IMG/VR virus record: IMGVR_UViG_3300035661_000350
Span: 1 to 22,329 of that record
Source of the DNA: a virus
Strand: one strand, 5' to 3'
Length of the DNA: 22,329 nt
The notes below the pieces were generated by a model. That model saw nothing but the letters and a program-made list of their open reading frames with translations, searched no databases and was not told the origin of the DNA. How positions within the stretch are numbered: the stretch's first letter is position 1; the number at the start of each line of letters is the position of its first letter. The position numbers and the translations under genes were made by a program. This document shows positions 2,170 to 20,189 of the stretch, piece by piece.

Positions 2170-2327
2170 ACATATCACCACTGCTTGGCGTAATCATCAG
2201 CAAAAAGTTGGCCACACTTCACGAGCTGCAGACCATCTATGGTTCAGAGGACGCCTACAATTTGTATGAGATCATCCGAGTCGACAACTACAACGAGAAC
2301 CTTCTGACGAGGCCAGCAAATGAGTAA
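1717..2327 (+). CDS. Tail assembly chaperone, long -1 frameshift form
   Basis: Predicted fusion: frame 0 from 1717 through Phe127 (codon 2095-2097), then a one-base backward shift so that the next codon starts at 2097, ending at TAA 2325-2327. The product is about 203 residues, with a 76-residue extension containing LNISPLLGVIISKKLATLHE and the acidic motif TIYGSEDAYNLYEII. The -1 frame is closed upstream by TGA at 2079-2081, so the shift must occur between 2082 and the frame-0 stop at 2167-2169. The extension has no start codon or ribosome site of its own and ends inside the first codons of the tape measure gene. This matches the G/GT logic of lambda-like chaperones, where the extension contacts the tube subunit. 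The shift is inferred, not demonstrated. Confidence 0.75.
2092..2138 (+). promoter_or_regulatory. -1 ribosomal frameshift signal: T5 slippery run plus stem-loop
   Basis: The frame-0 codons GGT TTT TCG (2092-2100) contain five T's, letting a tRNA-Phe on TTT re-pair with TTT one base back. Three bases downstream a hairpin can form: GCCGCCAAGCT (2104-2114) pairs with AGCTT (2127-2131) and GGCGGC (2133-2138), giving 11 base pairs with C2132 bulged and a 12-base loop. The 3-base spacer is somewhat short for a classical signal, and the A-site codon TCG does not re-pair well, so slippage would be mainly in the P site. Confidence 0.7.
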
Positions 2328-3924
2328 TGTCATCGAGAGCCTGGTCATCACTCTCGGGCTGGATGCTGAAAAGCTGAAGAAGGGCCTGCACGATGTGATG
2401 GAGGGACTGCGCGGCCTGAGCCATAAGGCCGACGAGTCCCTACATCATCTTGAGCACATGGCAAAAAGTAGTGAGCCTCTGATCGATGGAATGAAAGAGC
2501 ATCTGGTTGGGATGCTTGGTGCGCTTGCTTCTGTTGGCGCATTCATGGCTTTCACTGAGCATACGATGAAGGCTCAGACTGCCATGATCCATCTTTCTGA
2601 AGAGACAAAAATGTCTGTCGAGGATATTAGTCTCTGGCAGAATGCAGTCATCATTGCAGGTGGATCAGCAGAAGGATTCAATAGCTCACTCAAGGGTATG
2701 GGTGAGTCTCTCATCGCAATCGAGAAGGGTCTTCCGCGTGCGAAGCGTGCGATCAAGGCATTTGAGGCTGCTGGGATTCAAGGACTTGGCAAAGGACATC
2801 ATGTCGAAATCACTGACATGTATACCAGGATCCATGACAAATTTCAGAAGCTAACTGTTGCTGAGGCCATGACGCTTGGTAAGCGCATGCACTTGGATGA
2901 AGCAACGATTCGTGTTCTTCACAAGACTGGTGAAGAGTATGAAGAGTTCATGAACAAGGCCAAAGAAGCAGGTATCGTCACAAAGGAAAATGCAGAAGCT
3001 GCACATCAAGCTGAAGAAGCGCAGAATGAAATGAAAATCAGCATGCAGCGTTTCGCTGAGACGATTTTTCAGTATGCTGTTCCTGCAATGAAGTTCCTCA
3101 GCGAGAAGATGACGCAGTTTGCTCAGTGGGCCCGCAAAAATCCAGAGATCATCAAAGGTGCCTTGATGACGATCGGCACCGCAATGGTGTTTGTCGGCGC
3201 CAAGGCAGCATGGATGGGAGCTCAGGCTGCGCTTGGGTGGCTTGGCTTGCTTGGACCTGTTGGCCTGATCATTGCAGCTATCGGCCTGGTGGTAGGCGCA
3301 CTCGTCTATGCCTACAATAAATTTGAAGGCTTCCGCAATCTCGTCAATGGAGTCTTCACATGGATCAGTGGCACAATTCAAGTGAAAGTGGAGAACTGGA
3401 TATCAATTTTCAAATCACTTTGGGAGGCAATCAAGTCTGGCTTCACCCTTGTGGTTGGAATCTTCACGCTCAATTTTGACAAGATCAAAGAGGGATGGAC
3501 TGGTCTTGTTGATGCACTTGGTGATGCATTCAAGACTTTCCGTTACGACATCGAGAATGAAATGCTTCTGGTGATTTTTGCGATCATCGATGGCGTGACA
3601 AACATCTGGAATTCAATCAAGGAAACAAAACTCTACAAGTGGCTGTCTGATCATGACGGAAATGAGCACAAAGAGGGAGATGTAGTTGATGATGGACAAG
3701 GTGGCACATATGTCGTAGCTGCGCCAGTCACTGCTGCAGATGCGCAGAGTCCTGCCGTTTCAAATAACAGCACGAGCAGCAGAACTGCATCTACCACAAT
3801 CAATGTGGATCGCATTGAGGTCACGCCAGACCCTGGTTCTGATCCTAGTGAAGTTGGTGCTGCCGTTGCTGGTGGCATGTCGGATAAAGCACGCGACCTA
3901 GCTTATCAAATGGATGCCTACTGA
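2320..3924 (+). CDS. Tail tape measure protein
   Basis: A 534-residue, mostly helical protein immediately after the frameshifted chaperone, with which it overlaps by 8 bases; the long chaperone ends within its first codons, so translation is likely coupled. Residues 1-60 and 195-250 are charged and suited to coiled coil. Residues ~279-333 form a strongly hydrophobic Gly/Ala-rich stretch (GLLGPVGLIIAAIGLVVGAL), typical of tape measures, which can insert into the host membrane during DNA entry. The C-terminal ~70 residues are polar and low-complexity. Tape measure length sets tail length; at roughly 1.5 angstrom per residue this predicts a short tail of about 80 nm, an estimate only. Gene position and composition support the call strongly. 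Confidence 0.85.
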   Translation: MSNVIESLVITLGLDAEKLKKGLHDVMEGLRGLSHKADESLHHLEHMAKSSEPLIDGMKEHLVGMLGALASVGAFMAFTEHTMKAQTAMIHLSEETKMSVEDISLWQNAVIIAGGSAEGFNSSLKGMGESLIAIEKGLPRAKRAIKAFEAAGIQGLGKGHHVEITDMYTRIHDKFQKLTVAEAMTLGKRMHLDEATIRVLHKTGEEYEEFMNKAKEAGIVTKENAEAAHQAEEAQNEMKISMQRFAETIFQYAVPAMKFLSEKMTQFAQWARKNPEIIKGALMTIGTAMVFVGAKAAWMGAQAALGWLGLLGPVGLIIAAIGLVVGALVYAYNKFEGFRNLVNGVFTWISGTIQVKVENWISIFKSLWEAIKSGFTLVVGIFTLNFDKIKEGWTGLVDALGDAFKTFRYDIENEMLLVIFAIIDGVTNIWNSIKETKLYKWLSDHDGNEHKEGDVVDDGQGGTYVVAAPVTAADAQSPAVSNNSTSSRTASTTINVDRIEVTPDPGSDPSEVGAAVAGGMSDKARDLAYQMDAY

Positions 3925-10113: not shown

Positions 10114-11592
10114 ATGGCCACCAATGTCCCTGTCCCAACCCTCGGCTTGACTGGCTTCACCACCCAGCCAGACTCAGCCATTCTCGCTGGCGTGATCGCT
10201 GACATCCAGGCTGCGTTTGGTGGTGCGTTGAACCTGAGCGCAGGCACGCCAAGCAGCCTGACGACGCCACAGGGCCAGCTTGCGAGCAGCATCACTGCCA
10301 TGATCAGCGATTGCTACAGCCAGTTCCTTCAACTGGCATCGCAGACTGACCCTCAGTATGCCCAGGGCGCGATGCAGGACGCCATCGGCAACATCTACTT
10401 CATGACGCGAATTCCAGCCGCAGGGACCATCATAAGCGCCACAGTATCCGGCCTGCCAGGAACTTCCATCGGATTTGGCGTAGCAGTCGCACAGGATGCA
10501 GCCGGGAACCTCTACTCCTGCGCGACCGCTGGTGGTGCTCAGGCAGTGATCCCTGGTGGTGGCTCGCTGGCCATCAATTTTACCAACATCGCCACTGGTC
10601 CGACTCCATTCACTGCTCCGATGACGATCTACCAGACGACTCCTGGTTGGTCGAACATCTCTGGTGCTGTTCTTCTTCAGCTTGGCCAGGCAGTTGAAAC
10701 TCAGCAGGCATTTGAAGCACGCAGGCAGAATAGCGTGTCCGCAAATTCTGTTGGTCAGTTTGGCTCCATCAAGGGTGCGATTCTTACTGCTCTCGCAAAT
10801 GCTGGGGTCGGCACTTCAGTCTATGTTATTGAAAATGCCAACGCAGTGAACACCACAGTTGGTGGCGTGGTGCTGCTTCCAAACTCTGTCTATATCGCAG
10901 TGGCTGCTGGCAGCGCCACCAATGCTCAGGTCGCTAGTGCGATCTGGAAGTCAAAAGGAAATGGTTGCAGCTACACTCCATCTGCAATTCTATCCAGTGC
11001 TACAGTTTCTGGAACTGCCCTATCTCTTGCTTCAGCACTTGGAACTATCGCAATTGGCCAGTCACTTGTGCTTGCTTCTGGTGGCGCACCCTATCTGACT
11101 GCTGGTGGCGCACTTGTGACGATTGTCTCTGGGTCTGGACTCTCATGGGTTCTTAGTGGCACTCCTGCCACGAGCATCAGCGGAATCACGATTGGCACTG
11201 CTACGGTCGCACAGGTTCAGGACACCAGCTACGCTTCGCCCTATCCAAGCTACTATCCTCAGTGGACTGTGCCTGTTCAGGTTCCAATTTATGTTCAAGT
11301 CACGCTTGTTGGCGCAACTCTTGCCACGAGCGTTGCTGCGGCTACTGCTGCACTTGTGGCGCCAATTCAGAATGCCTTCACTGGTGCCGATGGTGGCGCT
11401 CCGGTTCAGCAAATCGGCGCCACAGTTTTTGGAACTCGATTCTTCAGCTCGATCTCTGCTGCGTTCGTCAATCCTCAAGTCGTAAGCGTGCTCGTGAATA
11501 CCTCTCCTAACTTTACTAGCAATCCAACCAGCGTCCCAATCAACATCAACCAAATCCCAGTCTATGGTGCTGTGAGCGTGGTGCTCGTGTGA
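10114..11592 (+). CDS. Baseplate J-like wedge protein (gp6/gp47 type) with inserted domain
   Basis: A 492-residue protein with AGGAG before ATG 10114. The N-terminus (~20-100) has the J-type pattern: ILAGVIADIQAAFGGALN, TPQGQLASSITAMISDCYSQ, then AIGNIYFMTRIPAAGT, matching 'D..G..R....A'. The usual domain with QAFEARRQNSVSANSVGQFG (~199-218) and GVGTSVYVIENA follows; these match the baseplate assembly J family that forms wedge dimers linking hub to sheath. Residues ~296-360 hold an extra ~65-residue Gly/Ser/Thr-rich domain that is also in the next protein. After it the core resumes with VPIYVQVTLVG and IGATVFGTRFFSSI. The stop overlaps the GTG start of the next gene. Confidence 0.8.
   Translation: MATNVPVPTLGLTGFTTQPDSAILAGVIADIQAAFGGALNLSAGTPSSLTTPQGQLASSITAMISDCYSQFLQLASQTDPQYAQGAMQDAIGNIYFMTRIPAAGTIISATVSGLPGTSIGFGVAVAQDAAGNLYSCATAGGAQAVIPGGGSLAINFTNIATGPTPFTAPMTIYQTTPGWSNISGAVLLQLGQAVETQQAFEARRQNSVSANSVGQFGSIKGAILTALANAGVGTSVYVIENANAVNTTVGGVVLLPNSVYIAVAAGSATNAQVASAIWKSKGNGCSYTPSAILSSATVSGTALSLASALGTIAIGQSLVLASGGAPYLTAGGALVTIVSGSGLSWVLSGTPATSISGITIGTATVAQVQDTSYASPYPSYYPQWTVPVQVPIYVQVTLVGATLATSVAAATAALVAPIQNAFTGADGGAPVQQIGATVFGTRFFSSISAAFVNPQVVSVLVNTSPNFTSNPTSVPININQIPVYGAVSVVLV
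10999..11193 (+). repeat. Inserted ~65-residue domain, copy 1 (in baseplate J)
   Basis: Residues ~296-360 of the J-like protein. By hand alignment about 39 of 65 positions are identical to copy 2; shared blocks are ATVSGT, G-T-I-x-x-G-Q, PYLT, IVSG and SWVLSGTP. The similarity is at protein level; the DNA has diverged. The pattern suggests a small beta domain inserted between core strands of the wedge protein. Confidence 0.8.
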
Positions 11593-12467
11593 TAAATCTC
11601 AATGGGACGATCCTAGCTCAATACACTAGCTCGCCAATTCTGATGGCGTGGTTGGCTCTGATCAACCAGTCAATCGACCCATCACAAGGCCCAGGTGGAG
11701 CAACGCCACCCTACCTGACTTCGCTCAAGACCAATGTTTGGGGCGCAATGGCCACCGCAACGCCTGAAGATGGTAGTGGCGTGACATTCCACTATGGATT
11801 TGATGTGTGGGGACGGATCGTTGGCGTTGGCCGGAATCTTTTTATTCCAGCATCAGTGGGAACCTGGTTCGGCTTCAATGAGGCACAGACTGGTGGGCCT
11901 ACTTATTTGTGGACTGGATTTGGTGATGCTCTTCCTGCCAACGCAGTGCTCAATGCGACCGTCAGTGGAACGAACCTGACGGTAAACTCTCTGACGAGCG
12001 GCACAATTGAAGTTGGGCAGGTGCTGATCGCCAATGCTGGTGGCCCTTACCTCACTGGTGGTGGAGCAATCATCAGGATTGTCAGTGGTGCTGGCTCATC
12101 GTGGGTTCTCAGTGGAACTCCTGGATCTGCGATTACGGGAATTTCAATTACTGCTGGTAGCTTACCGATGTGGGATAGCTCTTTCACCTCTCAGCCATCT
12201 CTTGGCCTGACCAATACTCAGATGCAACAGATGATCTTGGCTAAGGCTTATGCGAATATTTCTTCCGCATCATCCTACGCACTGAATATCGTTGTGCGAA
12301 AAATGTTTGGTGCAAGAGTCTGCGTCTACGATAATGGCAATATGGGAATGTCAGTCAATTTTGAATCAGCACCAACGACAGACCAGAGCAACCTTATTAA
12401 CTATGGCAATGTGCTGCCTCACGCATCGGGCGTGTTGGTTGGCATCACTACTGGCGCACTTCACTAG
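11589..12467 (+). CDS. Baseplate protein, DUF2612-like, with inserted domain
   Basis: A 292-residue protein whose GTG start overlaps the J stop (GTGA), so translation is coupled. Residues 66-98 (FHYGFDVWGRIVGVGRN then GTWFGFNEA) and 205-292 (LTNTQMQQMILAKAYANISS; VRKMFGARVCVYDNGNMGMS; YGNVLPHASGVLVGI) match the pattern I recall for DUF2612 baseplate proteins, which follow J and link wedge to tail fibres, comparable in place to Mu gp48/P2 gpI. Between them, residues ~123-187 carry the same extra domain as J. With it removed the protein would be about the usual family length. The tail-fibre-like gene comes next, consistent with a fibre-attachment role. Confidence 0.7.
   Translation: MINLNGTILAQYTSSPILMAWLALINQSIDPSQGPGGATPPYLTSLKTNVWGAMATATPEDGSGVTFHYGFDVWGRIVGVGRNLFIPASVGTWFGFNEAQTGGPTYLWTGFGDALPANAVLNATVSGTNLTVNSLTSGTIEVGQVLIANAGGPYLTGGGAIIRIVSGAGSSWVLSGTPGSAITGISITAGSLPMWDSSFTSQPSLGLTNTQMQQMILAKAYANISSASSYALNIVVRKMFGARVCVYDNGNMGMSVNFESAPTTDQSNLINYGNVLPHASGVLVGITTGALH
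11955..12149 (+). repeat. Inserted ~65-residue domain, copy 2 (in DUF2612-like protein)
   Basis: Residues ~123-187 of the DUF2612-like protein, matching copy 1 at about 39 of 65 positions (blocks ATVSGT, GTI-x-x-GQ, PYLT-x-GGA, IVSG-x-G, SWVLSGTP). It interrupts the DUF2612 core between the FGFNEA and LTNTQMQQ segments. Confidence 0.8.
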
Positions 12468-12476
12468 GAGAGCAGC

Positions 12477-13466
12477 ATGTCAACAATGGTTCAGCCAACG
12501 CCGATCTACCAGGCATGGTGCAGTGGATCAGGAGGAACGAAAGGCTTGATCGCCTCAATCCCGGCTGGTGCATCTTCTCCGAATGCCTCTCTCAATGATG
12601 GGTTCCCTCTCATCACGATGACCTATGCCGGTGGCCAGCCGCCAAAGGGTGCTGACATGAATGGCATCCTGAATTGGATTACTCAGTATTGCGTCTGGAT
12701 AAATGGTGGTGGCCAGTTCCCATTCAATGCAACCTACGCAGGGACGCCTGGCTATGCAGTTGGCGCAGTTGTCCAGCTTACTAGTGGCCTGTCATCGTAT
12801 GTCAACTTGGCAGCCAACAATACGAACGATCCCAACAGCGTGCTCACAAATTGGGCACCTTGGGCCGGGGCAGTGAAGGCGAATGTTGCTGATCTCAATG
12901 GCACTACTGCTGCACTTGGTGCTGCATTAGTCGCCTACAATTCCGCGGTTGCTGGTAGCTATGCTGCTGGGAGTGTTGGGGCGAATCTTTACACTGCGCT
13001 CACCAACGCTGCTGCAGCACTTACCAATGCCAGCAATGCACAGGCTGCCGCGAATACCGCGAATACCGCAATCGCCAACTTGACATCCACAGCTGCTGCT
13101 TTTGGCGCAGGCATGGTTGGATTCAGTGCTGCTTCTGCTTATGCAGCGAACACTGTTGGATCTGCACTGCGTGCGATTCCTGCTTCCCTTTTTGCTACAC
13201 AGAATGATGTCACTGCGTCGCGGACTCTTGGCACAAGCTACTCGTGTCCTGGTGGAACTGGCAAGCCAATGTTCGTGTCAGCACAAGGTAACGGAACGGG
13301 AAACTGCGTCATTAATCTCACTGTCAATGGAATTGTGGTGAATTCGGTTAGTATCAATGAGCCAAACACCATTGGCATCTGCGGTATGGTCCCTCCTGGT
13401 GGCACATATGCCATCAGTTACTCTGGCGCATTCACTGGTATCACCAAGTGGGTCGAAGTTTACTAG
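12477..13466 (+). CDS. Tail fibre / receptor-binding protein
   Basis: A 329-residue protein, ATG 12477 after GGAGAG. Residues ~1-125 resemble the N-terminal attachment region of many phage fibres: FPLITMTYAGGQPPKGADMN, then ILNWITQYCVWINGGGQFPF and GAVVQLTSGLSSYVNLAANN with NWAPWAG. The middle (~135-240) is almost entirely Ala/Asn/Thr helix, suited to a trimeric shaft. The last ~80 residues form a beta domain with VFVSAQGNG-like and NCVINLTVNGIVVNSVSIN strands, ending in ITKWVEVY, typical of the receptor-binding tip. No dedicated fibre-assembly chaperone gene follows. Target receptor cannot be read from sequence. Confidence 0.7.
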   Translation: MSTMVQPTPIYQAWCSGSGGTKGLIASIPAGASSPNASLNDGFPLITMTYAGGQPPKGADMNGILNWITQYCVWINGGGQFPFNATYAGTPGYAVGAVVQLTSGLSSYVNLAANNTNDPNSVLTNWAPWAGAVKANVADLNGTTAALGAALVAYNSAVAGSYAAGSVGANLYTALTNAAAALTNASNAQAAANTANTAIANLTSTAAAFGAGMVGFSAASAYAANTVGSALRAIPASLFATQNDVTASRTLGTSYSCPGGTGKPMFVSAQGNGTGNCVINLTVNGIVVNSVSINEPNTIGICGMVPPGGTYAISYSGAFTGITKWVEVY

Positions 13467-13476
13467 GAGAAGTAAC

Positions 13477-13863
13477 ATGCAGGTTTCAACATCAACGGGT
13501 TTCACCACAGGCGAAGTAATCGCACTCACAGGAGTCACTGTGATCGGCATCGGGTGGCTCGTGAGTGCGATCGCAGGATTGCTCAAACACGACCGTAACA
13601 TCGTCACCAAGCAGGATGACGAGCACATTCGACAGATCACAGCGCTATGGAAGGCGCAGGATGACATCAAGCGAATGCTGGACGCTGCGCGAACTGACAT
13701 CGCCGTCATTGATGATCGGTTGCAGAACACGATACCCGATATGCACCACTACGACTCGAAGTTGGAGACGCTTCGCACGCGCCTGGAGAGCAAACTGGAC
13801 GAGGTGCTCGATAAGCTACACACGACGCAGATTCAACTCGCACGCATCACACCGGAGGACTGA
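13477..13863 (+). CDS. Membrane-anchored coiled-coil protein at head of the lysis-like cassette
   Basis: A 128-residue protein; I start it at ATG 13477, which has AGGAGA upstream, rather than at the in-frame codon 120 bases earlier inside the fibre gene. A short polar N-terminus is followed by one membrane helix (~12-36, EVIALTGVTVIGIGWLVSAI) and a long charged helix (~45-128) with heptad-like spacing. This looks like a bitopic membrane protein with a soluble coiled-coil tail. Its place before an enzyme gene and a holin-like gene suggests a role in lysis, for example a holin-like or i-spanin-like partner. No second embedded outer-membrane lipoprotein was found in it. Confidence 0.6.
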   Translation: MQVSTSTGFTTGEVIALTGVTVIGIGWLVSAIAGLLKHDRNIVTKQDDEHIRQITALWKAQDDIKRMLDAARTDIAVIDDRLQNTIPDMHHYDSKLETLRTRLESKLDEVLDKLHTTQIQLARITPED

Positions 13864-13864
13864 C

Positions 13865-14305
13865 ATGGGCGGCAATCTGAATTTCTGTCACAGCACAGGA
13901 GTCTGGACGAAAGATGATGGCACCATCCTCGTGCCTGCTGGCCAGTCGTGGGCAGGCAACGACTCAAACCCTGAGTGCAATCCCACAGGCATCAAGGGCA
14001 AGCTGAACCACGATCAGCAGGGCACGCACAAGATCGGGCCGCTGCCTGTGGGCGTATATCGCGTGGGGCCGTGGGGTGATGCGCATAGTGTGCCAGGATA
14101 CCCAAAACATCTCGGTCCGCTCATTGCATCTCTCACACAGATCAGCGGAGATACGCTGGGACGTGACGGATTCTTCATCCACGGACCAGCGTCGCAGGCC
14201 TCTGGCATCTTCGGACAGGAATCGATGGGCTGTACCGTCACCATGCACGACTACCGCGTGAAGATTGCGCTGTTCAATCCCACGACTGTGAATGTCACAG
14301 CGTGA
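13865..14305 (+). CDS. L,D-transpeptidase-like (YkuD/DUF2778-type) candidate lysis enzyme
   Basis: A 146-residue protein starting at ATG 13865, after GGAGG; the frame is open far upstream, but that part overlaps the previous gene. The C-terminal half carries DGFFIHG (His106-Gly107) and, 13 residues after His106, SMGCTV (Ser120, Gly122, Cys123). This is the HG...SxGC signature of L,D-transpeptidase-fold enzymes, closest in spacing to the compact DUF2778/Tlde1 group that attacks peptidoglycan peptides with a catalytic Cys. The earlier K-I-G-P-L-P-V-G-V-Y segment resembles the product-entry strand of that fold (GPIPxGxY). No signal peptide is seen, as expected for a holin-dependent endolysin. 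No other endolysin is visible, so it is the best candidate. Activity is inferred. Confidence 0.65.
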   Translation: MGGNLNFCHSTGVWTKDDGTILVPAGQSWAGNDSNPECNPTGIKGKLNHDQQGTHKIGPLPVGVYRVGPWGDAHSVPGYPKHLGPLIASLTQISGDTLGRDGFFIHGPASQASGIFGQESMGCTVTMHDYRVKIALFNPTTVNVTA

Positions 14306-14326
14306 TTTCAACACAAGGAGGTTAGT

Positions 14327-14479
14327 ATGCTGCATGAGCAGTTTCACCACATAGTAATATTTGTGGTCGGAAACATAACAGGAGCAGCTGCTGCTCTATG
14401 GCTCTACAAAAAGATTGCAACACGCATCGCTGCTGCTGAAGCCAAGGCCAGAGCGGTGGTTGCTGACATTAGGAAGTAG
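14327..14479 (+). CDS. Small single-span membrane peptide
   Basis: A 50-residue product with a near-perfect ribosome site (AAGGAGGT, 4 bases before ATG 14327), the strongest in the cassette. One hydrophobic helix (~8-26, HIVIFVVGNITGAAAALWLY) is followed by a basic helix (KKIATRIAAAEAKARAVVAD). It lies between the transpeptidase-like gene and the holin-like gene. Small size, one membrane span and strong translation suit a holin or antiholin-type peptide. No specific family is recognised. Confidence 0.65.
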   Translation: MLHEQFHHIVIFVVGNITGAAAALWLYKKIATRIAAAEAKARAVVADIRK

Positions 14480-14481
14480 CC

Positions 14482-14790
14482 ATGTGGATCGCAACAGTAT
14501 GGGAGTGGTTGACAGGCTGGATCGTGCGCTGGGTCAACAAGCTGTTCGATGGCAAGGACCACACAGTTGAGACACGACTTGTGTGCTATGTGGCGGTCGT
14601 CGTCTCTGCGATCTGCTGGCTCAGTCACGGTATCTGGAAAGACAAAGCATTCACTGAAGGCTGGAACACAGCATTCGTCACCCTTGCTGGCATGGTCACT
14701 CTCGTGCATGCGAACGGTGCGTGGGCCAACCGACCTGCAAATCCAAAGGGTGGAGATTCCGGTGCCACACAGAAAGAAGGTGAGCAATGA
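14482..14790 (+). CDS. Putative holin with two membrane segments
   Basis: A 102-residue protein beginning two bases after the previous stop; the ribosome site (AGGAAG) is inside the preceding gene. An amphipathic aromatic N-terminus (MWIATVWEWLTGWIVRW) is followed by a polar turn with DGKDHTVETR, then two hydrophobic helices (~33-50 CYVAVVVSAICWLSHGIW; ~61-76 NTAFVTLAGMVTLVHA) and a charged, disordered C-terminus. This size and layout fit phage holins, which form the inner-membrane lesions that release the lysis enzyme. It is translationally coupled (ATGA) to the next gene. The call is from topology and position; no family match is claimed. Confidence 0.6.
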   Translation: MWIATVWEWLTGWIVRWVNKLFDGKDHTVETRLVCYVAVVVSAICWLSHGIWKDKAFTEGWNTAFVTLAGMVTLVHANGAWANRPANPKGGDSGATQKEGEQ

Positions 14791-15404
14791 ACTCGATGAC
14801 GAAATTGTATGCAGCGACGGTATTGATGCTGATCACCTTCGGCTTGGGTCTTGGGCTCGGGTGGAAGTTGTGGCGAGGAAAGATGACGACGATCACCAGG
14901 GATGTTCCAGGGCCAGCGATCATCCTGCATGATGGTGGTCAAGTCCTTGAAAAGAAAATCGCAAGCAAGTCCACCATCATCCAGGTGATTCCAGATGGTG
15001 CCCATGTCCAGGAGGAAGGAACCATCATATTCAGGCCAAATCCAGACCCGGCTCCTGATGATCATCCTGCAAAGGTTCCTGATGCTCCGCACGACTTCCA
15101 TATCAACTTTGCCTTGGTCACGATGGCTGATGGCTCCAGGCGAGTCGTCGCCAGCAGTCCAGAAGGGAAGGTGGTTGGCGGCATTGACATCGTCGTTGAC
15201 CCACACAAGCCAGCGCCACTGCCGCTTCGCAACTCTGCTGGACTTGTTTATGGGACGACTGCCTGGGGCGATACTGCCAAAGGAATCTTCTACGACAGAG
15301 ATTGGAAGTTTATTCGTGCTGGACTTGAGGTCACTCATAACACCTACGCAAATGTCAATCGTACTGCGTGGGAGGGTCGCATCAAGGTTGGTTTGAATTT
15401 CTAA
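14787..15404 (+). CDS. Membrane-anchored protein with outer-membrane-like C-terminus (spanin candidate)
   Basis: A 205-residue protein overlapping the holin-like gene by ATGA. Residues ~5-29 form an N-terminal membrane helix (LYAATVLMLITFGLGLGLGW) with flanking Lys/Arg but no cleavage or lipobox motif. A beta/turn region (30-80), a Pro/Asp-rich stretch (~82-101, NPDPAPDDHPAKVP) and another beta region follow. The last ~55 residues alternate aromatic and polar positions and end in GRIKVGLNF, like the closing strand of an outer-membrane protein with terminal Phe. Such an arrangement could tie inner to outer membrane, making it a spanin candidate in the lysis-like cassette. Similar terminal-gene proteins occur in other phages without known function. 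The role is a hypothesis. Confidence 0.55.
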   Translation: MNSMTKLYAATVLMLITFGLGLGLGWKLWRGKMTTITRDVPGPAIILHDGGQVLEKKIASKSTIIQVIPDGAHVQEEGTIIFRPNPDPAPDDHPAKVPDAPHDFHINFALVTMADGSRRVVASSPEGKVVGGIDIVVDPHKPAPLPLRNSAGLVYGTTAWGDTAKGIFYDRDWKFIRAGLEVTHNTYANVNRTAWEGRIKVGLNF

Positions 15405-18848: not shown

Positions 18849-19880
18849 CTACCTCAGCTCAACGAACTGGTGATCGAGATCCCATTGAAGGTCGGTGGCA
18901 CGACCACCAGCTTCGATGTATTCCTCGAAGCTCATTCCATCGTGCACCAGGTTGTAGCTCTTCCATCCGTGCGTGCCTTCCCTGCGCGGATTGCCCTTAG
19001 CAAGTTTGTAGATCTTCTTGCCAGCCTTGTCGCTGCGGGGCCCAGGAGCAGCCCCAGGGAGGCGAGGCACTCGCGGCTGACGAGGCTCCCTGGCCTCCTT
19101 GCCCTTTGGGTATCCTGGCTGCTTGGCCTGAATGTCGAACGAACTGCCCTTGTCAGTCAGCGTGACATAGTAGAACGGGTCATTGGGATCAGTGCTGTCA
19201 TCCTCGATGGTGACATAGCCGAGCTGAACCAAGATGTCAATTTGCTTGACGACCTCCTTGGTGCTCGTGACAGCAGCCCGTGCCAGTTCAGTGCTGGTCG
19301 TGACTTCATCCTCGTTTTTGGTTTTGTGTTGGCGCATTTGGCTCTGTGCGAACCAGAGGACTGCAGCAGCACGACTGCCAGGTTCAAGTTCAGTTGGCGC
19401 ATTGCGATGGCCACGCTTGCGCTGTGGCGCCTCAGTGCCAGCATCCTCCTGCTCCTTTTCCTTCTTCTTGCGCTGAGCATCCAGCAGAGTCTTGGCTGCG
19501 GCAGCGAACTCAGGATCAGCTGGTTCACCATCGCTGGCCACCACCTTCACCTTGGCATCCTTCCTGCTGGTCTTCTCTTCAGCATCCTTGGCTGCAGCAT
19601 GGGTCTTTTCTGCGGCCTGTGCTTCAGCTCTCGCCTGTGCCTTTTCTTTCTCCTTGGCTGCCGCGGCCAGCTCTGTTTCGTACTTGGCGATGATCTCCGG
19701 CCTCACCTTCACTGCCTTCATCGCCTTCAGGAACTTGGCAGTATCGATGTGCGCAAGTCCATGGAGCCTACCCTCAGCAGTCTTTCTGTCCTTGAACTTC
19801 TTGACCTCGATCTTGCTCAGCTGGTTGTAGCACTCGACAATCTCTTGCGTGCTCAAGTCAAGAATGATTTGGTCTGACAT
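18849..19880 (-). CDS. Modular protein: N-terminal helical motif, winged-helix-like middle, C-terminal 'NPR-EGT' domain
   Basis: A 343-residue protein, ATG 19880 after GAGGG. Residues ~5-45 (LSTQEIVECYNQLSKIEVKK, FKDRKTAEGRLHGL) match an N-terminal motif common in phage and alphaproteobacterial proteins. Residues ~65-160 are Ala/Lys/Glu-rich, likely an extended helix. Residues ~160-255 resemble a winged helix (AAVTSTKEVVKQIDILVQLG, a recognition-helix pattern, then YVTIEDD and FYYVTLTDKG). The C-terminal ~50 residues (NPRREGTHGWKSYNLVHDGM, YIEAGGRATDLQWDL) are shared with the next gene product. The whole resembles DUF3489-like proteins. DNA binding is likely but unproven; a nucleoid-like or regulatory role is inferred. 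Confidence 0.65.
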   Translation of the reverse strand: MSDQIILDLSTQEIVECYNQLSKIEVKKFKDRKTAEGRLHGLAHIDTAKFLKAMKAVKVRPEIIAKYETELAAAAKEKEKAQARAEAQAAEKTHAAAKDAEEKTSRKDAKVKVVASDGEPADPEFAAAAKTLLDAQRKKKEKEQEDAGTEAPQRKRGHRNAPTELEPGSRAAAVLWFAQSQMRQHKTKNEDEVTTSTELARAAVTSTKEVVKQIDILVQLGYVTIEDDSTDPNDPFYYVTLTDKGSSFDIQAKQPGYPKGKEAREPRQPRVPRLPGAAPGPRSDKAGKKIYKLAKGNPRREGTHGWKSYNLVHDGMSFEEYIEAGGRATDLQWDLDHQFVELR

Positions 19881-19919: not shown

Positions 19920-20189
19920 CTACTTGCTGGTGAGGTGGATGTGGCCTTTGGCGATATCCCAGCGCAGATCAGTGGTGCGACCGCCCAGCTCAACGAACTT
20001 GGCAACGGTCATGCCGGATTTGATGAGGCTGAAGGACTGGAAGCCCCAGGTGCCCTCCTTGCGGGGATTGGTCTTCACGTCCTTGACGATGATCAGATCA
20101 GGGTTGGTGACGGAGCCACGCGTGTTCTTCGGCTCAGACTTCTTTGTGGACTTGGTGCTCTTCTTGCTGGTGGTGGACTTGGCGGCCAT
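19920..20189 (-). CDS. Small basic protein with the shared 'NPR-EGT' domain
   Basis: An 89-residue protein, ATG 20189 with AAGGAG upstream. The N-terminal ~25 residues are a Lys/Ser/Thr-rich tail (KSTTSKKSTKSTKKSEPK). Residues ~40-86 hold the domain NPRKEGTWGFQSFSLIKSGM, then FVELGGRTTDLRWDIAKGHI, matching the C-terminus of the 343-residue neighbour at the same spacing. The two genes are 39 bases apart, so the pair probably arose by duplication or domain capture. The basic tail would suit nucleic-acid binding. Function unknown. Confidence 0.65.
   Translation of the reverse strand: MAAKSTTSKKSTKSTKKSEPKNTRGSVTNPDLIIVKDVKTNPRKEGTWGFQSFSLIKSGMTVAKFVELGGRTTDLRWDIAKGHIHLTSK

Follow-up and report, generated by a model that had tools for sequence, protein, structure and literature searches.

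The YkuD fold hosts enzymes with LD-transpeptidase, LD-carboxypeptidase, and LD-endopeptidase activities, and its LD-transpeptidases carry the motif (phi)G(phi)HG(S/T)-X10-(S/T)XGC(phi)R(M/L) (PMC12729407). Tlde1a of Salmonella Typhimurium acts as an LD-carboxypeptidase and also has an LD-transpeptidase exchange activity, its active-site residues being R115, H121, G130, and C131 (PMC9638812), and DpaA, a hydrolase, has an Ala at the second position after the catalytic Cys (Cys+2), where many LD-transpeptidases have an Arg (PMC10653827). In phages, YkuD is one of the lytic domains listed by PhaLP, where it occurs 10 times among 11,838 proteins, once as PF10908 (PMC8310338), and a virome study counted three YkuD endolysin genes (PMC5017753). 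In phage JC1, a DUF2778 gene precedes that of the terminase large subunit by two genes, and a lysozyme is encoded separately, in the lysis module (PMC9144972). The literature searched, to which most subscription journals do not belong, yielded no experimental test of a Tlde1-like phage protein.

Organization of the window and of the candidate gene

The stretch of viral DNA analysed here (the window) is a linear, incomplete contig of 22,329 bases. According to Pfam and PHROGs, a tail module on the + strand fills its left two thirds, and is followed by a lysis cassette region, 13477-15404, made up of five short genes on the same strand. Rightward of 15404 are − strand genes, including those for an SNF2-type helicase and a DUF932 protein. 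The features referred to below are:

2320-3924, + strand: tape measure, tail module
10114-11592, + strand: baseplate wedge, tail module
11589-12467, + strand: DUF2612 protein, tail module
12477-13466, + strand: tail fibre (PHROG tail fiber), before the lysis cassette
13477-13863, + strand: 128-aa membrane protein, one N-terminal TM segment followed by a coiled coil (hydropathy scan)
13865-14305, + strand: Tlde1-like protein of 146 aa, second of the five short genes; proposed endolysin with predicted catalytic His106 and Cys123
14327-14479, + strand: 50-aa protein with one TM segment, cassette member
14482-14790, + strand: 102-aa membrane protein, two hydrophobic segments; holin-like by topology
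14787-15404, + strand: 205-aa protein, N-terminal TM segment and periplasmic-looking domain; conserved cassette marker and anchor in the slot-replacement test

The open reading frame at 13865-14305 runs from an ATG to a TGA, has a GGAGG directly 5' of the ATG, and starts one base after the stop of the previous gene (13861-13863). It is a real, conserved gene. An earlier note on this DNA, made from its letters, had described membrane-protein genes with holin-like topology around it, and genes for small membrane proteins were found at 13477-13863, 14327-14479, 14482-14790, and 14787-15404.

Repeated segments were also observed elsewhere in the window. The baseplate wedge and the DUF2612 protein have in common an inserted segment of ~60 aa (VSGTxLxxxS...SWVLSGTPxxxIxGIxI), which is present in the wedge of locus L084 too; it represents a domain that recurs in adjacent baseplate genes. 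On the − strand, the C-terminus of 18849-19880 and the neighbouring 19920-20189 share a motif of ~50 aa (NPR+EGTxGxxSxxL..GMxxxxxxExGGRxTDLxWD), suggesting, by sequence likeness, a duplicated small domain.

Conservation and predicted fold

Each of the 57 aligned homologues consists of one short domain (119-146 aa). Across them, G31, G58, P59, P61, G84, L90, G99, R100, F103, H106, G107, S120, G122, C123, R131, and V144 (window protein numbering) are invariant. The motifs on which the earlier note was built, H106-G107, S120-M121-G122-C123, and GPLPVGVY, were located as described, the last one at 58-65. Because R100, H106, G107, S120, G122, C123, and R131 do not vary among the 57 sequences, dN/dS is low (0.05-0.32, seven close relatives), and the structural model is confident, a chance match of the motif was dismissed. 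In line with the earlier remark that the window protein lacks a signal peptide, the hydropathy scan of the 57 homologues detected neither a hydrophobic TM-like nor a signal segment.

The AlphaFold2 model obtained with the 57-sequence alignment had a pLDDT of 96.7 and a pTM of 0.90. Its best PDB matches were three Tlde1a entries (Z 11.4-11.5, rmsd 2.8, 120-121 residues), with 7UO8 at Z 11.5 and, by Foldseek, at E 2.5e-4 and prob 1.00; next were Pgp2, Bd1075, and Csd6, at Z 10.3-11.1, and also YkuD of B. subtilis. When viral models were searched by fold, Tlde1-domain phage proteins came out best, and a Nodularia phage endolysin, a Synechococcus phage tail-lysozyme protein, a GH19 protein, and a DUF5675 protein appeared lower.

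By sequence, the window protein scored 17.0 bits (E 0.0083) with the Pfam model Tlde1_dom (PF10908/DUF2778), in which membership is defined by a score over the curated cut-off of 30.1 bits; for this reason it is named Tlde1-like here and not a PF10908 member. Of four relatives tested, three exceed the cut-off (L024, 37.0; L007, 46.2; L049, 52.4 bits) and one fails (L109, 25.2 bits). Its PHROGs match is an unnamed family (E 1e-9), and NCBIfam and a direct search of PDB sequences returned no match to it. Since the profile of the 57 homologues also gave matches only at chance level against PDB sequences, the fold assignment rests on structure comparison. The L,D-transpeptidase/DUF2778 fold foreseen from the motifs was borne out by the structure prediction, by Tlde1a as top match, and by the relatives over the Tlde1_dom cut-off, and the model makes it almost certain that the window protein has the L,D-transpeptidase (YkuD/Tlde1) fold.

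The active-site set of Tlde1a is found, by motif spacing, as R100, H106, G122, and C123 in all 57 sequences. The YkuD motif as a whole is not matched by the window protein, which keeps HG and SxGC and departs from it by an HGP in place of HG(S/T), a longer His-Cys spacing, and a V at Cys+2. In the 57 homologues, Cys+2 is I, V, or once E, and never R, from which, as in DpaA, we infer a hydrolase; the absence of this Arg is not decisive, as some true LD-transpeptidases vary at this position.

Distribution of the homologues

Six IMG/VR relatives were obtained by direct search and 80 loci were kept from the profile search, in addition to one homologue (57%) on a Geothrix MAG contig. No relatives were found by using the DUF2612 protein as a route to them. 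Further homologues are present in jumbo phages of Erwinia, Dickeya, and Yersinia, in cyanophage lysozymes, and in a Citromicrobium ssDNA microvirus, as its gpB. The “lysozymes” of cyanophage S-2L (L107:3230-4372) and of a Nodularia phage (L108:2071-3324) consist of a GH24 domain and a C-terminal L,D-transpeptidase-like domain. The microvirus gpB (ORF2; L007:1328-1738, MG214764.1) is one of the relatives that score over the Pfam cut-off; ORF2 was without a match in the paper describing the virus (PMC6030365), and its sequence makes it a candidate lysis gene of this 4.4-kb genome. Two other small records (L062 and L082; 4.1 and 4.4 kb), considered as possible microviruses, matched neither the capsid nor the Rep protein of the Citromicrobium virus.

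In the jumbo phages (L147 and L008), the Tlde1-like gene is among SbcC/D-like and other DNA-metabolism genes, ~2.6 kb from an annotated endolysin (Yersinia phage fHe-Yen9-02) or from a putative glycosyl hydrolase (Dickeya AD1), and its role there may therefore differ. In L011 the gene is likewise within a DNA-metabolism region and not in a lysis cassette, with a weak GH19 match elsewhere.

Exchange with known lysis genes and neighbours of the gene

In the slot-replacement test, relatives of the 205-aa cassette protein were used as anchor and the gene adjoining them was read. A Tlde1-like gene was beside the anchor in L002-L006, L012-L019, L132, L133, and L146, and in the last three upstream of it; also upstream of it were a T4-type lysozyme (GH24, PF00959, E 2.8e-42) in L144, a GH108 muramidase (E 5e-18) in L134, and a DUF5675 protein (E 6e-27 to 3e-31) in L130, L131, and L137. 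The cassette position is thus interchangeable, being occupied by a GH24, GH108, DUF5675, or Tlde1-like gene next to the same 205-aa protein.

The DUF5675 proteins in the slot (L130:3992-4444, L131:5158-5610, L137:2734-3177) carry an H..GC pattern, and the DUF5675 protein reached by the viral fold search with the Tlde1-like model is that of phage RP31. Modelled with AlphaFold from three sequences, DUF5675 gave a poor result (pLDDT 43), and hence no claim on its fold is made.

Baseplate-wedge relatives are mostly without a Tlde1-like gene. After the tail fibre, some of those without it have a SleB-type Hydrolase_2 (L096, L101), a VanY-like protein (L095, below cut-off), or a C92 peptidase (L087). 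Among records of 30 kb or more, Hydrolase_2 was present in 4 of the 15 non-carriers, all wedge relatives, versus none of the 32 carriers.

The neighbouring membrane proteins also point to lysis. Homologues of 14482-14790 are 3' of the Tlde1-like gene in L005/G003, L132, and L146, and 3' of the DUF5675 gene in L137, and a two-TM holin-like gene often travels with the 205-aa membrane-anchored protein in other phages. Genes with a TM segment plus a coiled coil, such as 13477-13863, precede the homologues in L002-L006, L046, L054, and L055; 13477-13863 itself, with one sequence homologue (L010:7797-8159), is possibly a holin or an accessory lysis protein. GTA_holin_3TM is directly after the homologue in L021 and L024 and near the gene in G015 and G035, and a holin (GTA_holin_3TM or PHROG) is next to it in L055. 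By PHROGs, a holin is beside the homologue in L046 and L069, an endolysin is the neighbour in L059, and an Rz-like spanin in L050. The holin of the window is a putative one, by topology, the Pfam and PHROG holins being those of the relatives L021, L024, L046, and L069. Small TM proteins were 31 of the 62 adjacent same-strand genes counted after removal of near-duplicates, against 13.6% (sd 3.9; maximum 27.9% in 2000 draws) for random genes of the same loci, a descriptive figure as the loci are partly dependent.

Other wall hydrolases in the window and its relatives

The Pfam scan of the other proteins of the window found no peptidoglycan hydrolase at E<=1e-3, in agreement with the earlier note, which had seen no lysozyme, amidase, or peptidase there. 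Likewise, among the called proteins of G003 (~36 kb, near-complete) and G001 (40 of 41 kb scanned), no Pfam wall hydrolase besides Tlde1_dom was detected. G003 (IMGVR_UViG_3300035182_000144) is classed as linear; because its ends (L122:1-1198 and L123:16248-17448) overlap by 1.2 kb at 92% identity, it is probably a near-complete permuted genome of ~36 kb.

A fast family search had detected Phage_lysozyme in 0 of 49 carriers, a result weakened by its having missed a real lysozyme beside the L050 homologue (22.7 bits). Absence counts from this search are thus incomplete, and the full Pfam scans of G003 and G001 were relied on instead. Searches for M15_4 and GH19 did not separate carriers from non-carriers. 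A second wall enzyme is present in a few carriers: the homologue is immediately upstream of a lysozyme gene in L050 and of a GH108 or endolysin gene in L061 and L059, and G005 has a weak GH19 match. Given these carriers and the jumbo phages, the Tlde1-like family is not always the sole endolysin.

Slot replacement, the holin and spanin neighbours, the fusions and tandems with lysozymes, and the two relatives without another recognised wall hydrolase support the placement of the gene in the endolysin slot, as the earlier note had it, and a role of the Tlde1-like gene in the lysis cassette is probable.

Proposed role in lysis

The gene at 13865-14305 is likely to be the endolysin of the phage, or its main wall-attacking enzyme, as a cysteine peptidase of the YkuD/Tlde1 fold that has a single domain, stays in the cytoplasm, and is released by a holin. 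Genomic context gives this reading good support; wall activity and the bond attacked are proposals. In the scheme that we infer, which runs from holin export through hydrolysis over transfer and the bond cut to lysis itself, the protein would accumulate in the cytoplasm, as it has no export signal, until at lysis time the holin-like product of 14482-14790, and possibly that of 13477-13863, would open the inner membrane and let it reach the wall. Cys123, activated by His106, would then attack the L,D bond after meso-diaminopimelate (mDAP). An endolysin must cut crosslinks, most simply at this bond, which is present in both crosslink types; the targets would be mDAP3-D-Ala4 in 4-3 crosslinks and mDAP3-mDAP3 in 3-3 crosslinks, cut by hydrolysis. 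That the protein is the sole endolysin, with a crosslink-cutting LD activity, has close to an even chance of being right. Tentative, and a little short of even, is the broader proposal of a widespread class of stand-alone endolysins that would lyse Gram-negative hosts via L,D hydrolysis at mDAP in 4-3 and 3-3 crosslinks, in tailed phages and at least one 4.4-kb ssDNA microvirus (Citromicrobium gpB), with DUF5675 as a second family in the slot.

The enzyme might instead be an accessory wall-modifying LD-carboxypeptidase/LD-transpeptidase which, like Tlde1a, trims or swaps tetrapeptide ends and so weakens or edits the wall, while a separate or unrecognised enzyme completes lysis. Its nearest folds, Tlde1a, Pgp2, Csd6, and Bd1075, are mainly LD-carboxypeptidases, and those of the YkuD fold studied so far trim peptide ends and do not lyse, which counts against the endolysin reading; in the jumbo phages and in L050 and L061, moreover, the gene accompanies a lysozyme or an annotated endolysin. 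However, the Pfam scans detected no second wall hydrolase in G003 and G001, and within the slot the gene takes the place of single, stand-alone endolysins, so that an accessory enzyme is a rather unlikely explanation.

The fold is also that of a type VI effector, Tlde1a (PMC9638812), and a toxin against competing bacteria, or a factor changing the wall against other phages rather than lysing the cell, could be envisaged. Such a role is very improbable, as the homologues are single short domains without TM or signal segments, no secretion system genes were recognised among the 10 Pfam families of the window, and the neighbours are lysis genes; with signal, delivery domain, and context absent, a type VI secretion system (T6SS) effector is unlikely. 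The divergence of the window protein from Tlde1_dom (17 bits) and its lack of the Cys+2 Arg of many LD-transpeptidases would fit a protein that has lost catalysis and is retained for something else, as a wall-binding or structural component, but the invariance of H106, S120, G122, C123, and R100 and the low dN/dS among close relatives make this the most remote of the explanations weighed.

Most known endolysins act on glycan strands, on the MurNAc-L-Ala amide, or on D,D or L-Ala-D-Glu peptide bonds. If the Tlde1-like protein is the sole endolysin, phage lysis would acquire a further bond specificity, new to it, and a crosslinking fold would have been turned into a crosslink cutter. If the proposal is true, a function would also be gained for many phage genes that are now labelled hypothetical, DUF2778, or DUF5675, among them gpB of a cultured ssDNA microvirus. 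As carbapenems acylate enzymes of the YkuD fold (PMC12729407), a drug-sensitive step in phage lysis is conceivable.

Comparison with known systems

The closest described protein is Tlde1a (PF10908/DUF2778; PDB 7UMA, 7UO3, 7UO8), with which the window protein shares the predicted fold, an Arg six residues before the catalytic His, a Gly before the catalytic Cys, and (S/T)xGC. They differ in the His-to-Cys spacing, which is 17 in the window protein and 10 in Tlde1a; in addition, the window protein is below the Pfam cut-off and in a phage lysis cassette, with no signal peptide seen and no T6SS context recognised. Pgp2, Csd6, and Bd1075, which are LD-carboxypeptidases, and the amidase DpaA combine the YkuD fold with hydrolysis in place of transfer, as proposed for the window protein, and DpaA too is without the Cys+2 Arg, but they are bacterial enzymes of wall shaping or lipoprotein detachment and none is a phage lysis enzyme.

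The YkuD entries of PhaLP and of the virome study are, like our protein, of the L,D-transpeptidase fold, and are annotated as phage lytic domains. They are rare annotations, whereas here a stand-alone, single-domain family is described from cassette, slot-exchange, and holin evidence in dozens of viral contigs. YkuD was thus already known as a rare phage lytic domain (PhaLP), and what we propose as new is a stand-alone, widespread family of Tlde1-like endolysins. The proteins of S-2L (S2L_53) and Nodularia phage kac68v162 (gp079), annotated as lysozyme/endolysin, have a C-terminal domain related by sequence and structure, but there it is fused behind a GH24 lysozyme, while the window protein stands alone. 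Finally, the canonical endolysins of the GH24, GH108, and SleB-type Hydrolase_2 families are found at this position of the cassette in related phages, although their folds are unrelated and they are mostly glycosidases.
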